Below are positions 38,216 to 44,659 of a DNA stretch of 64,000 nucleotides, one piece after another. Under the pieces are notes generated by a model. The model saw nothing but the letters and a program-made list of their open reading frames with translations. It made no database searches and was not told where the DNA came from. Position 1 is the first letter of the stretch; every line of letters starts with the position of its first letter. The stretch is from NCBI GenBank assembly GCA_963205105.1, contig CAUJJW010000085.1, forward strand, positions 1 to 64,000, in the 5' to 3' direction. The position numbers and the translations under genes were made by a program. This DNA comes from Verrucomicrobiota bacterium. GTDB taxonomy: Bacteria > Verrucomicrobiota > Verrucomicrobiia > Limisphaerales > CAIMTB01.

Positions 38216-39544
38216 ATGCGTCCTCTTCTCGAAATCCTTGGAACCCTGGCCCTGGGGGTGTGGATCACCGAACCTCCACAGGCCGTCCCAGACGTCACCC
38301 ATCCGACGTTGCCCTCGATGGCCGACCTGCGTCCGCTGGCGTCGCCCAAGCCGGCCACGGCTCCCTCCATCCAGATGGTCCGCGACCCAGCCGGCTTGCG
38401 GCTCGTCTTCAGCGGGGTGCTTTGCACTGCGACCGCTCCCCAAGGCCCCTGGATCAAAGTTCCCGCCGCCACCAGTCCTCACCTGCTGGATCCATCCCCA
38501 ACCAGCCACCGCTTCTACCGTGCCTTTCAACCCGCTTCCGCCGGCATTTTCGAGGATTCCTCCATTCTGGAATGGACGTTGACCGGACCGTTTCAGGATC
38601 ACTTCGACCTCGCCTTTGCCGGCATGCCGGACGGCATTTTCCCACCCCGCCGAGAAAAGCCGTACTTTCCGGGGGCGGTCCATTTTTCCGGCCTCGACCT
38701 CGCCACCAGCCTGCGGGTGCGCGGCAACTCAAGCCTTCAGGAATGCCCGTTCCCAAAACTGAAACTCAAGGTCGCCAAGGACGACCGCGAAGGCACTCCC
38801 TTCGCGGACGCCCGCGAAATCGATATTGGCAGCCATTGCGCCGAGGGCGGGAGCGGCACCGTGGGGCGGTTGCGTGACGAACGGGCCGTCTACCGCGAAG
38901 CTCTGGCGTACGAAGTGATGCACGTGGTGGGGTTGGTGGCTCCGCGCGTGCGCCGGGCGCTCATCGAATACCGCGACACCAGCCTCGCAGATCCGACCAC
39001 CGAGGACACCGTCGGCTGGACCCTCCGACGTCAGGCCCTGCTGATGGAGGATGCCGAGGTGGTGGGCGAACGCCTGGGCGGGCGGGCGCTCGACGACTCG
39101 GAGATCGCCGACCTCAAGGACGCGCGATTCGACCCTGCGCTCGTCTCCAGCCTCCGCTTGCTCCACGCGCTCCTCGGCAACTGGGATTACGCCCTGTCCG
39201 AGACGGGAAAAGGCTTGTGGAACATCGAGGTGCTGGCGATGGCCGATGGTTCGTTCATTCCCATGGCCGGAGATTTTGATTTGGCGTCTTGGGTCACCGA
39301 TCGGGTGCGCCTGAATGCCCCGCACGATTATCGGCCGGAGCTTCCGGATTTGGAGCGCGAGATGCATTTCCAGGTGGACGCCGTCCGCCAACAGACGGAG
39401 ACGGTCGCCTTCGACGCCGCGAGCAGCAGGTTTCGGGACAAGCGAGCGGCCTTGGAGCAACACATCAGCTTGGCGGTGGTGGATGAATCCGGTCGACGCA
39501 ACATCCAGAACCATCTGGCCGCCTTCTTCGCAGCCCTGCCCTGA
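38216..39544 (+). CDS. Exported protein with CotH-like features
   Basis: A 442-residue protein with an N-terminal hydrophobic segment (LLEILGTLALGVWI). Residues 50-110 resemble the module seen at the end of many secreted verrucomicrobial proteins (GLRLVFSGVLCTATAPQGPW). The main part has phrases reminiscent of CotH-family spore-coat kinases: SLRVRGNSSLQECPFPKLKL, RDERAVYREALAYEVMHVVG and LIEYRDTS, then LHALLGNWDYA and PMAGDFDLASWV in the position of catalytic residues. Kinase activity is possible but unproven; the assignment is tentative. The start at 38216 (MRPLLEI) is chosen by the hydrophobic N terminus; the preceding stretch is divergent intergenic DNA. Confidence 0.6.
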   Translation: MRPLLEILGTLALGVWITEPPQAVPDVTHPTLPSMADLRPLASPKPATAPSIQMVRDPAGLRLVFSGVLCTATAPQGPWIKVPAATSPHLLDPSPTSHRFYRAFQPASAGIFEDSSILEWTLTGPFQDHFDLAFAGMPDGIFPPRREKPYFPGAVHFSGLDLATSLRVRGNSSLQECPFPKLKLKVAKDDREGTPFADAREIDIGSHCAEGGSGTVGRLRDERAVYREALAYEVMHVVGLVAPRVRRALIEYRDTSLADPTTEDTVGWTLRRQALLMEDAEVVGERLGGRALDDSEIADLKDARFDPALVSSLRLLHALLGNWDYALSETGKGLWNIEVLAMADGSFIPMAGDFDLASWVTDRVRLNAPHDYRPELPDLEREMHFQVDAVRQQTETVAFDAASSRFRDKRAALEQHISLAVVDESGRRNIQNHLAAFFAALP

Positions 39545-39553
39545 AGGGGAAGC

Positions 39554-41542
39554 TCAGGGACGGACGTAGCGCACGTTTTTCTTGGCGTTGGCCGCCGCAC
39601 CGTCGACCTGAAAGGGGACCTGGACCAGGTTGGTCCCCTGACGCAGCAGCACTCGCCCGCGATTTCCGGTGACACTCACTTCCTGCACTTCGGGCGCGAC
39701 GCCGTTGGTGCTCAAGGAGCGGAATCCGGAACCCGCGCCCGGAACGACCGCTTTGCCCTGCATCGACTGAACCACGTTGCCAATCGACGTCTCGATGGTT
39801 CGTCGTTCGACTTCCGTCAGCGTCCGGCGGTTCGCCCCGCCGGCCACCACGCTCGCTTCGGGAGCCACTCGGACCGTGACGCTTCCAGAGGACGTGCTGG
39901 CAAGCGGAACAGGACCCCTGGCGATTTTCTCGTCGATCGCCTTGAACCGGGCCCGATACGAGTCCCGCACCCCCGCGGGTAGGTTTGGATCCAATGCGGG
40001 ATCCACGGCACGCGCCTTCAAAGGCGCCATGACACGCGCCGCGGCGTCCGTCTGGTTGAACTGGAGATACTTCTCGGCCTGATCGAAGCGCACCCGAATG
40101 GCTTGATCCGCCTGCCCCGTCTTCTCGTAGCCCGACGCCAGGAGGTCCACCAACCGCGTGGGAACCACCACCGGCCCGGCCACGCCCCCGCCTGCCGCGG
40201 CCTTGGCATTGAGGTGATCGGCGGTCTCCATGGCCCGCTGGAGCTGGAACAGGGCGGAGTCCACCCGCCTGGGTGACTTCCAGCGATCCAACTGGCTGTA
40301 AATCACCCCCAGCGCCATGTGGTAGCGGTAGATCTTCTCGGTCTGGGAAGTCGAATAGGCCTCGCCTTTGCCCTGAAAAATCCCCACCTCATGCTGCTGC
40401 ATCAGGGCGTCGAGCTTCCGCATATCGCGCCGGTCGGAATAATGGTTCGCCAGCAGCCATAAGGCCTCGGGATCCGGTGCCCCGGATTTCGCCCCCACGG
40501 CCAGCAACCAATACGCCTCCTGCCGCTCCACGTTGCCCTCCACCCCAGCCCGTTCCCCCAACGCGCGAATCAAACCGAGTAACGACTCGAAAGGCCACCG
40601 GCCTCGCCTCGGCTCTTCACCAGGTCGGATCAGGCGGCTCCACCAGCGAATGCGCCCGGCGTCGAGCGCCCCGGGCTCGTACAGGTGCAGCAGCCCCTTC
40701 ACACCTTCACCCACCTCCGGATCTTCCACCAACCCACGGAGCATCCGTGCCGCGGCAGACGCCGCAAACTCCTGCAAGGTCTCATTCCTCCGGCTGAGGC
40801 AATACGCCACCAAACCCATCATTTCCTCCCGTTGAACCCTCGACCACACCGGATGCCGCATCACCCCCAACGCCGAATCCAACACCTGCGCCACCTGCCC
40901 CGCCTCCGCCAATTCCCCAAGATACCAGGCCAGCAGGTCAGGTCCCTGCTGAACACAGGCATCCACCAGCTTGCGGTGCACCGACCGATTCTGCGGCTGC
41001 TCGCCCGCCACCATCGCGTACAGCCGACAGGCGTCCCGCCATCGACCCGCTTGAAGCAGCAGATCGGCGTAGTTCTCCGCGTAAAAACCCCTCCGTGAAT
41101 CGTTCAATTCCACCGCCCTGGAGAGCGCCAATAACGCCTCGTTGGTGCGGCCCAACGCCACCTGCACCCGCGCCAGATTGTTCAGAATTCCCGCCGACTC
41201 CTGCCCCTTGGCCAAAGCCTCGCGATAGTGCTCAAGCGCCGACCCCAGCAACGCCAACCGTTGAGCATCCTCCACCCCAGCACCAGCCTGCTGCTGATCC
41301 GTCAGCCCCAGGTAGAAATGCGCTTCGGCCAGTCCGGCAGGATCTTCTCCTTTGTCCAGGGAGGACAGCAGCCCCAGAAAACTCTGGCGCGCCTCGCCAA
41401 AACGGCCGTCCTTCAACGCCGCCAGCCCGTTGGCCGCGGGATGGGGCATCGCGCCTTCAGCGCCTTGCGCCCCCGCCACCGCACTCTCCCAACCCAGGGC
41501 CAACAGGACCGCTGCCGCCACTTCTCGCATCCGGGTCTTCAT
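39554..41542 (-). CDS. Exported TPR-repeat protein of a TIR operon
   Basis: A 662-residue protein with a signal peptide (MREVAAAVLLALGWESAVAG) and TPR-like helices through the first third (NGLAALKDGRFGEARQSFLG, GILNNLARVQVALGRTNEAL, NYADLLLQAGRWRDACRLYA). The middle is helical. The C-terminal 110 residues form a beta-rich domain with VSVTGNRGRVLLRQGTN. It is the last gene of three joined by ATGA overlaps (with the upstream gene at 41539-41542), so production is coupled to the TIR protein and the middle gene. It probably acts in the periplasm as a scaffold; family not recognised beyond TPR. Confidence 0.75.
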   Translation of the reverse strand: MKTRMREVAAAVLLALGWESAVAGAQGAEGAMPHPAANGLAALKDGRFGEARQSFLGLLSSLDKGEDPAGLAEAHFYLGLTDQQQAGAGVEDAQRLALLGSALEHYREALAKGQESAGILNNLARVQVALGRTNEALLALSRAVELNDSRRGFYAENYADLLLQAGRWRDACRLYAMVAGEQPQNRSVHRKLVDACVQQGPDLLAWYLGELAEAGQVAQVLDSALGVMRHPVWSRVQREEMMGLVAYCLSRRNETLQEFAASAAARMLRGLVEDPEVGEGVKGLLHLYEPGALDAGRIRWWSRLIRPGEEPRRGRWPFESLLGLIRALGERAGVEGNVERQEAYWLLAVGAKSGAPDPEALWLLANHYSDRRDMRKLDALMQQHEVGIFQGKGEAYSTSQTEKIYRYHMALGVIYSQLDRWKSPRRVDSALFQLQRAMETADHLNAKAAAGGGVAGPVVVPTRLVDLLASGYEKTGQADQAIRVRFDQAEKYLQFNQTDAAARVMAPLKARAVDPALDPNLPAGVRDSYRARFKAIDEKIARGPVPLASTSSGSVTVRVAPEASVVAGGANRRTLTEVERRTIETSIGNVVQSMQGKAVVPGAGSGFRSLSTNGVAPEVQEVSVTGNRGRVLLRQGTNLVQVPFQVDGAAANAKKNVRYVRP

Positions 41543-42456
41543 CGGCCACCTCCAGCGCCCGATCCCTCGAAAGGCTGCGTGACCAAACCCTCCAGGGTCG
41601 TCGGGGAATAGCTGTAGTCCTTCACGTACTGGCTCATGAAGACCTTGATCGACTCCGGGATCGCACTGCGCACGCTCTCGGGCATCGATATGTGCCAGGC
41701 GGTTTGCCGTGGCAGCGGCGGATGATCAAAGAGAGTCACCGCACAGGCCACCTTGTCGCTGACGGCCACCGAGGGACTGAGATCCATCCGCACATCCAGC
41801 GTGGTTCCGTCGGGTCGACGAATGGAATAGGTGGCTCGGAGTTGAGATCCGTCTCCCGGCAACAAATCCCCCCAGCGGGCCGGGAGGATGACCCGTTCCA
41901 GATTCGCGTTCGGCTCCAGGGCCCGGGCCACCGGGATCTTCACCAGGAACTGCGTCTGCAGTTTCCGGAGATTCTCGGTATTCGAAAACACAACGCGCGC
42001 CATCTCCAGCAGGTCCTCCCGCAGGCGGGAGGAGTCCTGGGTGGGTTGCTCCAGATCGTTGGCGCGATACAGGGACTCCACCATCAACGGCCGCCCCATG
42101 GGCTCCGGCCCCACCCGCTCGAACTGCACCGAAACCGCCGGAATGAACGTCGATGAACTGCCGGCCACCATGCTGCCCCTGAGAACCCATGGCGGATCGT
42201 CCGCCGCAGGTTCATTCGTCAACGCCCGCCACTCGACGTAGCTCAATTCCTCGGCGCACAGCTGGGCCATGCGCTGGGCCACCGCCGCTTCCAACACCGC
42301 CCGTCTCGAACCGAGATTCTCGCGGAACGTCGGGGCCGTGATCGTGAAGCGGGTGCCCACCACCGGATGACCGGCGTCCGCCGACCACAACCGGCACGTC
42401 AACACCAGGAACACCCCCACACCCCACCCACTCCTTCTCCAAGGTTGTCTCTTCAT
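41539..42456 (-). CDS. Exported FlgO/CsgG-like protein of a TIR operon
   Basis: A 305-residue exported protein (signal peptide to about residue 28, SADAGHP). The early region resembles the FlgO/CsgG/TolB-N fold: FTITAPTFRENLGSRRAVLE, AVAQRMAQLCAEELSYVEWR, then PPWVLRGSMV. The second half (LVKIPVARALEPNANLERV, RATYSIRRPDGTTLDVRMDL) is unrecognised. It overlaps both neighbours by four bases, upstream TIR gene and downstream TPR gene, the signature of one transcript. The fold assignment is tentative. Confidence 0.65.
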   Translation of the reverse strand: MKRQPWRRSGWGVGVFLVLTCRLWSADAGHPVVGTRFTITAPTFRENLGSRRAVLEAAVAQRMAQLCAEELSYVEWRALTNEPAADDPPWVLRGSMVAGSSSTFIPAVSVQFERVGPEPMGRPLMVESLYRANDLEQPTQDSSRLREDLLEMARVVFSNTENLRKLQTQFLVKIPVARALEPNANLERVILPARWGDLLPGDGSQLRATYSIRRPDGTTLDVRMDLSPSVAVSDKVACAVTLFDHPPLPRQTAWHISMPESVRSAIPESIKVFMSQYVKDYSYSPTTLEGLVTQPFEGSGAGGGR

Positions 42457-43988
42457 GGATTGCCCCCACTTCCAGGTTTCCGATCCACCAGAACGGTCCG
42501 GATTCCGTTCGTCGCATCCAGAACCGTCGCACTCAGTGCCTCCTTCACCGCACTGCCATCCTTGTTCAGTTCAAAGCGCAAACCGTCCAAGGCAACTGGC
42601 GGTGTCCATCCCGTGAACCGCCGCGGGTCCAACCACATCGCGGCCACCTGCCGTGCGGGCTGGTCGGGCAGGGACAACCGGCTGCGTGCCCACTCGTTCA
42701 ACCAGGACTGGCGATCATCCAACCGCTCGCGCCTCAGACCCATCGCCACATCCTCGTCCGTGGCCCCCAAATAGAGCGCCTGTCGCCGCAGATCCGGAAC
42801 ACGCACGCCAGGACCATCGGTCACCAGGTCCAAGTGGTAGACTTGGTTCACTTCCCCCAAGGGCTTGCCCAACAAGTCCACCAGCCGGGTGCCCGGCAGC
42901 ACCCGCACCACATTCACCGGCTTGAGCGCGAACTGTTCCGGCACTCGCAGCCTCAGAGCGGACGCCGGCCCCAGCTTCACCGGGAACGCCCCCCGGTCCC
43001 CCGCCGGGTCCAACCGCAGTTCGCCGTTCTGCCCCCACCGGAACCAGAAGCGCCGCGACGCCACCCGGCGCTCCGCCGTCAAAGATCCCGATCGCCAAAG
43101 CACTTCCCCCTTTTTCGACCAGAGTTCCACCGAGTACGGGTTTTCCTCGCTGGGAGCGCTGGCCGCCTCCACATGGATGGACGACGTCCCCGCGAACAGC
43201 ACCGCCGAACCGACCAGCAATCCCGTCAAACCCAGGGTCGAGAACGGACTCCCAAACAGCCTTCGGGGCAGGTTCTTCATCTCCTCTTCCGCCCCCCAGC
43301 GGATGTAGAGAACCACCAGCCAGAGCAACGCCGGCAACCCCACCGAACCTCCCACCGCGACGGTTCCCAGGCTGCTGGGGGCATGCCGCAGGTACCAAGC
43401 CGCCCACAACACCAGCACCCCGAGCAGGAGAAACCAATTCACCAGGTACCGACGCCGATTCGTCCTCGCCTTCGCACGCTGGACGTCGGCTCCGCGTTCC
43501 TTGCGCAACACCGCGACCAAATCGCCCACGGCTTCATGCGTCGACTGATGACGTAGATCCACCCAGGTGAGTTGCTCCAGAAATCCACCCGGCGCCTCGC
43601 CTCCGGGCAAAAGGACCGGCACCACGGGAAATCGGGGATTCTTGTCCTGCCGACGCAGCGCGACATCCACTTCGCGCTGCTGCACTTCCCCGATCCCGTG
43701 CGGTCCCAGCATCACCACCACCGACCCGCACGATGCGAGCACCCGTTCCAGTTCCGGGCGCCACCGGAGGCCGGGCTCCAAATCCCAGCGATCCAGGAAC
43801 GGTCTCAGCCCGCGCTCCAGCAAACCTTCCGCCACCCCCAACACGATCTCGTGGTCCTTGGAATTGTAGCTGATGAAGACATCCACCCGGCTGCCCCCGC
43901 CCTCTCCCGTCCCCACCCCGGAACCCCCGGAGCCGGCAATACCGGAAGCCGGGGGTTCATCAGGGACCTTGGATCGCGGCGAGGTCAT
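42453..43988 (-). CDS. TIR-domain three-TM protein
   Basis: A 511-residue protein. After a Gly-rich leader, residues 35-150 form a TIR domain (VDVFISYNSKDHEIVLGVAE, FLDRWDLEPGLRWRPELERV, VVVMLGPHGIG, QREVDVALRRQ). Glu106 is the likely catalytic glutamate of NAD-hydrolysing TIRs, although the Trp that often precedes it is Val. Three membrane segments follow (about 182-200, 208-230, 251-267), then a periplasmic-side beta-rich region of 240 residues with no known fold. Bacterial TIR domains often make NAD-derived signals or deplete NAD in phage defence; others bind proteins. It heads a three-gene ATGA-coupled operon. Role unknown; sensing across the envelope is an inference from topology. Confidence 0.85.
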   Translation of the reverse strand: MTSPRSKVPDEPPASGIAGSGGSGVGTGEGGGSRVDVFISYNSKDHEIVLGVAEGLLERGLRPFLDRWDLEPGLRWRPELERVLASCGSVVVMLGPHGIGEVQQREVDVALRRQDKNPRFPVVPVLLPGGEAPGGFLEQLTWVDLRHQSTHEAVGDLVAVLRKERGADVQRAKARTNRRRYLVNWFLLLGVLVLWAAWYLRHAPSSLGTVAVGGSVGLPALLWLVVLYIRWGAEEEMKNLPRRLFGSPFSTLGLTGLLVGSAVLFAGTSSIHVEAASAPSEENPYSVELWSKKGEVLWRSGSLTAERRVASRRFWFRWGQNGELRLDPAGDRGAFPVKLGPASALRLRVPEQFALKPVNVVRVLPGTRLVDLLGKPLGEVNQVYHLDLVTDGPGVRVPDLRRQALYLGATDEDVAMGLRRERLDDRQSWLNEWARSRLSLPDQPARQVAAMWLDPRRFTGWTPPVALDGLRFELNKDGSAVKEALSATVLDATNGIRTVLVDRKPGSGGNP

Positions 43989-44131: not shown

Positions 44132-44659
44132 CTAGCGGGAACGCCGGTCACCCGAGGAACTCCCCCGCTCCCCAAGCCGCTCCGGGCGTGAACCCGAAGC
44201 AGGACGAGGACGCCAAGTCCCACCCTTCGAGGTCGGAATCACCGGGCCCCGCCCAGCAGCAGGAATCGTCGCCGCACGGGGCGTCGTCGCCAACCGCGGC
44301 CCACCCGAACCCGTCGCCGGCCTCGCGGGATTCGAGGGTCGCCCCGGGCGGTTCACCGGACGATTGCCCGGCCGTTCGGGAGCCCGATTCCCCGGCCGAT
44401 CCGGAGTCCTGGAAGCGGGTCGTTCCGGAGCCCGATCCACCGCGCGCTCCGCCCGCCGGCTCTCAGGCCGTTGCGCCGTCGTCTCCACCCGCCGATCCGC
44501 CGGCCGGGTCCGCGACGTTCCGGCCCGACCTCCGGCAGCCCGCCCTCTGGACGGCCATCGTCCCGGGGCCGCCCCACCCGTCGACTCGGTGGAGGGGCGT
44601 CGAGACCGCGCCGGTGCCGGCGCCGGCCCCGGCCCAGGCACAGGGGGCGGACGCGCGGA
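44132..44659 (-). pseudogene. Possible severed basic C-terminal tail of RNase R
   Basis: Directly after the RNase R TAA (44660-44662) the same frame stays open for 175 codons and encodes an Arg/Pro-rich low-complexity sequence with repeats such as DRAPERPASRTPDRPGNR and APERPGNRPVNRPGRPS, ending at 44132. RNase R proteins often carry long basic tails, so this may be a tail cut off by a nonsense change. However, very GC-rich DNA keeps several frames open by chance here, so the coding status is not certain. Confidence 0.4.

Follow-up and report, generated by a model that had tools for sequence, protein, structure and literature searches.

A TIR-domain operon of Verrucomicrobiota with the layout of a candidate trans-envelope receptor

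For most bacterial TIR systems that have been characterised, recognition of infection takes place within the cell. In animal Toll-like receptors, an ectodomain, a membrane part and a cytoplasmic TIR domain are united in one chain. PelB, a protein of the Pel system, bears TPRs. Among the bacterial TIR NADases, AbTir requires D167 and E208 for activity, and the tryptophan of its WxxxE motif is needed for 2'cADPR production; the W204A mutation abolishes NADase activity, whereas the corresponding W240 of TcpC is dispensable (PMC11374754). This tryptophan is less conserved in TIR domains that are non-catalytic or that make non-cyclic products (PMC11374754). Envelope-anchored phage sensing has a precedent in Zorya (PMC11890865). 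PelC works together with PelB in a complex that contains a PelC ring of twelve (PMC12141448), and FlgT sits at the H ring of Vibrio (PMC9093738).

The window analysed here is a stretch of 64,000 nucleotides from a Verrucomicrobiota genome. Three intact minus-strand ORFs, running from 43988 down to 39554, encode the proteins A, B and C (Table 1). A sequence-only reading had proposed a three-gene unit coupled by 4-base overlaps, and both the ORFs and the overlaps (42453-42456 and 41539-41542) are exactly as claimed. A scan of the region for promoters and terminators gave no signal above shuffles.

Table 1. Coordinates of the A-B-C genes and their parts in the window.
Feature	Position	Strand	Description	Basis
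Gene A	42453..43988	-	511 aa: TIR_2, three TM helices, ectodomain	ORF, Pfam, hydropathy, homologues
TIR domain of A	43509..43889	-	residues 34-160 (about); Asp66 and Glu106 kept, Val102 at the WxxxE Trp position	
Ectodomain of A	42453..43181	-	residues 270-511: CnaB/transthyretin-like beta-sandwich (modelled), then alpha/beta part; fast-evolving	
Gene B	41539..42456	-	305 aa, exported; FlgT/TolB-N/PelC/CsgG-like fold	ORF, model and Foldseek, orthologues
Gene C	39554..41542	-	662 aa, exported TPR protein	ORF, TPR matches, orthologues
A/B start-stop overlap ATGA	42453..42456	-	4-base overlap likewise in three other genomes	
B/C start-stop overlap ATGA, GAGG upstream	41539..41542	-	overlap and GAGG likewise in three other genomes	

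Protein A is a member of the TIR_2 family (PF13676; residues 37-155, E = 7.6e-23, 81.7 bits against a curated cut-off of 28). Like AbTir/TcpC-type proteins, ThsB of Thoeris and the TIR-SAVED proteins of CBASS, it has the conserved Asp and Glu. Unlike these TIR NADase effectors, it is membrane-anchored with a periplasmic domain, has Val in place of the WxxxE Trp and is encoded with two exported partners. A-B-C also differs from Thoeris and CBASS in having no ThsA, SAVED or cyclase partner, and it belongs to neither system. Within the operon, PADLOC returned TIR-generic matches only (SAVED_TIR, E 8e-10; ThsB, E 3e-4) and one weak TPR match, while a match to ThcB4 was far below its cut-off. With Zorya, which consists of a ZorAB motor and cytoplasmic effectors, the locus shares the idea that an inner-membrane protein with a periplasmic domain senses envelope perturbation and drives a cytoplasmic effector (PMC11890865). 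In contrast to Zorya, Pfam and PADLOC revealed no MotAB-like motor and no peptidoglycan-binding or OmpA/Pal-type match in A, B or C; the effector is unrelated, and A-B-C is not a member of that system.

Conservation within A is highest in the TIR domain and lowest in the ectodomain, with identities among the three TIR-bearing copies of 60-66% for the TIR domain, 41-44% for the linker and TM region and 30-38% for the ectodomain (B and C, 40-51%). Such a pattern would suit a constrained effector attached to an adapting sensor. Among the three homologues there is no change at Asp66, located in an FLDRWDL stretch, at Glu106 or in much of the TIR core. AbTIR is among the closest solved structures, and an alignment to it covers Asp66; Glu106 was placed by the motif and by an alignment of TIR_2 segments. 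The two positions match D167 and E208, both required for NADase activity in AbTir (PMC11374754). The WxxxE motif of catalytic TIR NADases is incomplete in A, its Trp being replaced by Val102 in all three TIR copies, which bears out the earlier claim that the likely catalytic Glu is kept and the neighbouring Trp lost. Both W and E occur in 28 of 62 aligned TIR_2 segments from these and related genomes, some of them poorly aligned, and other TIRs in the same alignment keep the Glu with Tyr or another residue at the Trp position. Because the W204A variant of AbTir loses NADase activity, catalysis by A is uncertain, even though TcpC manages without its Trp. If active, A is predicted to make a linear product, which fits the absence of a cADPR-receptor (ThsA-like) gene from the operon; if inactive, it would serve as a scaffold. 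Loss of the Trp and the lack of a ThsA-like gene in the operon would fit direct depletion of NAD+ better than signalling. In another genome (G087, L045:671-1492, minus strand), a TIR protein of reverse order was noticed: its three predicted TM helices precede the TIR domain, and the WxxxE motif is intact.

A simple hydropathy scan placed the TM segments of A at residues 182-200, 209-227 and 249-267. The stretch before the first helix is basic (9 K/R vs 2 D/E), as is the loop between the second and third, and these charges fit an N-in, C-out topology with a cytoplasmic TIR domain and an exported C-terminal domain. Hydropathy and charge pattern thus agree with the proposal of a TIR domain joined through three membrane helices to an extracytoplasmic domain. 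Structure prediction had been suggested as a check on this domain. The AlphaFold2 model (pLDDT 73, pTM 0.57) starts with a CnaB/transthyretin-like sandwich (Foldseek, CnaB2 8bdw, E 4e-3, TMt 0.60), and Foldseek found no clear structural match for the second half. As in animal Toll-like receptors, ectodomain, membrane part and cytoplasmic TIR are present in one chain. The order in A is reversed, however, with the TIR domain N-terminal, and there are three TM helices and no LRR, so that the likeness is an analogy and homology is claimed only for the TIR fold.

For B, no Pfam, NCBIfam or credible PDB-sequence match was obtained, and its sequence places it in no named family. An AlphaFold2 model built from four sequences (pLDDT 76, pTM 0.72) matched FlgT (3w1e, E 8e-8, prob 1.00), TolB (E 6e-5) and PelC (E 1e-3, the dodecamer structure 5t11 being among the matches) in Foldseek, and further HpaA and, weakly, CsgG. 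Since whole-chain TM-scores are low (about 0.2-0.4), the assignment is to a fold class and not to a family, and at that level the label 'FlgO/CsgG-like' given previously holds. We regard the fold classes of B and of the ectodomain of A, both derived from models, with moderate confidence. Several proteins of the fold class of B form rings or belong to ring systems (PelC, FlgT). Protein C carries TPRs according to Pfam, and the N-termini of both B and C, each with a basic-hydrophobic leader, by eye resemble signal peptides, in agreement with the description of C as an exported TPR protein. Family searches found no beta-barrel or pore domain in C. The locus resembles PelB/PelC and the FlgT/FlgO/FlgP rings of Vibrio in that B falls in the FlgT/PelC/TolB-N fold class and might have a TPR-bearing partner in C, as PelC does. 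It differs in that the operon contains no flagellar or Pel genes and no barrel was found in C, and those systems have no inner-membrane TIR protein.

The genes A, B and C occur in the same order in four genomes of one Verrucomicrobiota order. Two further copies are from the same genus (G003, L042; G004, L043; 40-46% identity), the C gene of G004 running off the contig end with its last part probably on C325. The fourth copy is from a different family (G448, contig JABTUJ010000009.1, MAG H5_VER1; L067). In every copy, A with B and B with C overlap by 4 bases (eight junctions in all), and a GAGG lies upstream of the C start; in two of the other three genomes, some start codons were assigned by homology as GTG or TTG. 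A-B-C was not found in the same-genus sister species G001 and G002 (96% and 92% complete). A profile of B searched against 320 genomes of the order recovered the same four genomes and two marginal partial matches only, and a profile of the non-TIR part of A, against 293 genomes, the same four and one marginal match. In class and phylum samples, the B profile found only the known copies, matches with E about 1e-3 being short and partial; with the C profile, the class search gave the true copies and TPR-only noise confined to residues ~24-216. A single-sequence scan of genome contigs with A gave no match. The distribution is rare and patchy, yet within the four genomes the three genes are inseparable. 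The sequence-only reading had staked its proposal on co-occurrence of the homologues elsewhere, and A, B and C are indeed together in 4/4 genomes, with the non-TIR part of A or B convincing in no other. Because order and overlaps are kept and the non-TIR part of A and B are found convincingly in these genomes only, A, B and C very probably work together. TIR_2 matches number 8, 10 and 12 in the window's genome (G000), G003 and G004, the TIR of the operon included, and none of the other TIR loci read in these genomes has B or C nearby; they show other domains and layouts. The operon-free sister species G001 and G002 have 3 and 1 TIR_2 matches.

The copy in L067 differs from the others in its A protein, which has 347 aa and contains the three TM helices and the ectodomain with no TIR domain. 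The three genes are still coupled there. No TIR_2 match was found on this contig, and the genome has seven elsewhere. The TIR domain is thus not a constant part of the module, and the A-B-C module can do something without it. As judged from the four copies, the constant core is the membrane/ectodomain part of A with B and C, and the TIR domain appears as a head that is gained or lost. Whether one lineage acquired it or the other lost it is a question of polarity for which four copies are too few.

In the window, A-B-C is located between RNase R/SMC and a convergent gene of an unclassified family, beyond which are GT2, VTT and then MurJ-like and polysaccharide-export-like genes (the last two by eye). 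The convergent gene (38216-39544, plus strand) encodes a protein that looks CotH-like by eye and for which neither Pfam, NCBIfam nor PADLOC gave a credible match. RNase R and A are separated by a gap of 670 bp with an R/P/G-rich ORF of 169 aa (44132-44641, minus strand), which might not be coding or might represent a shifted tail of RNase R. In G003 and G004, A-B-C adjoins an MFS transporter gene. For comparison with an empty site, the surroundings of the MFS gene in G000 and G002 were inspected and had different neighbours. The remaining genes that surround RNase R in the window were not found close to it in sister genomes. Two unclassified ORFs (816 and 416 aa) lie with short gaps directly downstream of C in G003 (L042:3625-7380, minus strand), and the 416-aa protein gave a bacterial HORMA match below threshold (E 0.011). 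In L067, C is followed after about 1 kb by a gene for a NACHT-domain (STAND NTPase) protein of 984 aa (L067:10946-13900, plus strand), for which PADLOC gave no specific system match.

The sequence-only reading had regarded the operon as a candidate defence system, and this part was not borne out. No defence-gene neighbours were found in the window or G003, and in L067 only the NACHT gene; a defence-gene or mobile-element location, as expected of known anti-phage systems, was seen in none of these three settings. Searches of plasmids (with C), phages (with B) and viral contigs of IMG/VR (with B) gave no match. Because neighbours are housekeeping or unrelated genes, PADLOC matches are TIR-generic and no plasmid, phage or viral copies were found, enrichment in defence islands is not supported, four loci being few for such a comparison. 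The context lends no support to an anti-phage function, plausible as this is. The remainder of that reading stood, i.e., topology, operon, co-occurrence, the fold of B and a TIR domain with Glu kept and Trp lost, although the TIR-less version had been overlooked. The gene set, the topology signature, the conservation and the retention of Asp66 and Glu106 with loss of the Trp can be read from the sequence.

We tentatively favour, at somewhat less than even confidence, a model in which A-B-C acts as a transmembrane TIR receptor whose gate is an assembly of B and C in the periplasm, so that an envelope event clusters A and the TIR heads consume NAD+. Protein A would be anchored in the inner membrane, the TIR domain facing the cytoplasm and the CnaB/transthyretin-like and alpha/beta domain the periplasm. 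On this ectodomain, B, of a FlgT/TolB/PelC-type fold that often builds rings, and C, as a periplasmic TPR scaffold, would assemble. Phage entry, damage to the cell wall or outer membrane, or loss of a structure bound by B and C could alter the assembly, upon which A would cluster and the TIR domains would be switched on. The active TIR would most likely hydrolyse NAD+ to non-cyclic products, and growth would stop. Complex formation, envelope sensing, NADase activity and the outcome are steps that we infer.

A serious rival, possible though rather doubtful, is that the membrane part of A, B and C form a periplasmic assembly serving the cell surface, i.e., a structural or export module, with the TIR domain as a regulatory or scaffolding reporter and not an immune effector. 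An envelope role of this kind would account for the coupling of A, B and C in the TIR-less version of L067 and for the absence of defence context, and the folds nearest to B (FlgT, TolB, PelC) are all parts of envelope machines; PelC and the PelB TPR scaffold form such an assembly for an exopolysaccharide. However, where a TIR domain is present, no other segment is as well conserved, the patchy presence, with A-B-C not found in G001 and G002, is unlike housekeeping export, and family searches revealed no beta-barrel or pore domain in C. A third possibility, which we consider unlikely, is a TIR domain without enzymatic activity whose sole role is to recruit another TIR protein of the cell through TIR-TIR contacts. 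The Trp is lost in 3/3 copies, as against 28/62 TIR_2 segments keeping W and E, and G000, G003 and G004 have many other TIR proteins as potential partners. Yet Asp66, Glu106 and much of the core are invariant, other TIRs that keep the Glu have Tyr or a different residue in place of the Trp, and in TcpC the Trp can be dispensed with (PMC11374754). The differing locations, next to RNase R in the window vs an MFS gene in G003 and G004, might suggest that unrelated genes lie together by chance, a reading that is ruled out for practical purposes: the arrangement recurs in three other genomes with 8/8 junctions as 4-base overlaps, and the unit is intact across two families.

Under the receptor model, A-B-C resembles, by analogy, a bacterial Toll-like receptor through which damage to the envelope could be relayed to a TIR domain. 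A more specific version, which we consider somewhat improbable, is a bacterial Toll-like receptor with a periplasmic ring/TPR sensor of B and C and an interchangeable cytoplasmic head, in which a TIR NADase unable to make cyclic ADP-ribose would kill or arrest the cell after an envelope breach. In the open-access literature we found no described system that combines TIR with CsgG and TPR proteins, or TIR with a periplasmic sensor. Each component is of a known kind; to judge from the open-access literature searched, what is new is the combination, together with the occurrence of the module in a TIR-bearing and a TIR-less form. The TIR-less copy could serve as a natural control with which sensor and effector functions are told apart. 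If the model is true, bacteria would also use TIR domains as envelope receptors, in a layout resembling that of Toll-like receptors.
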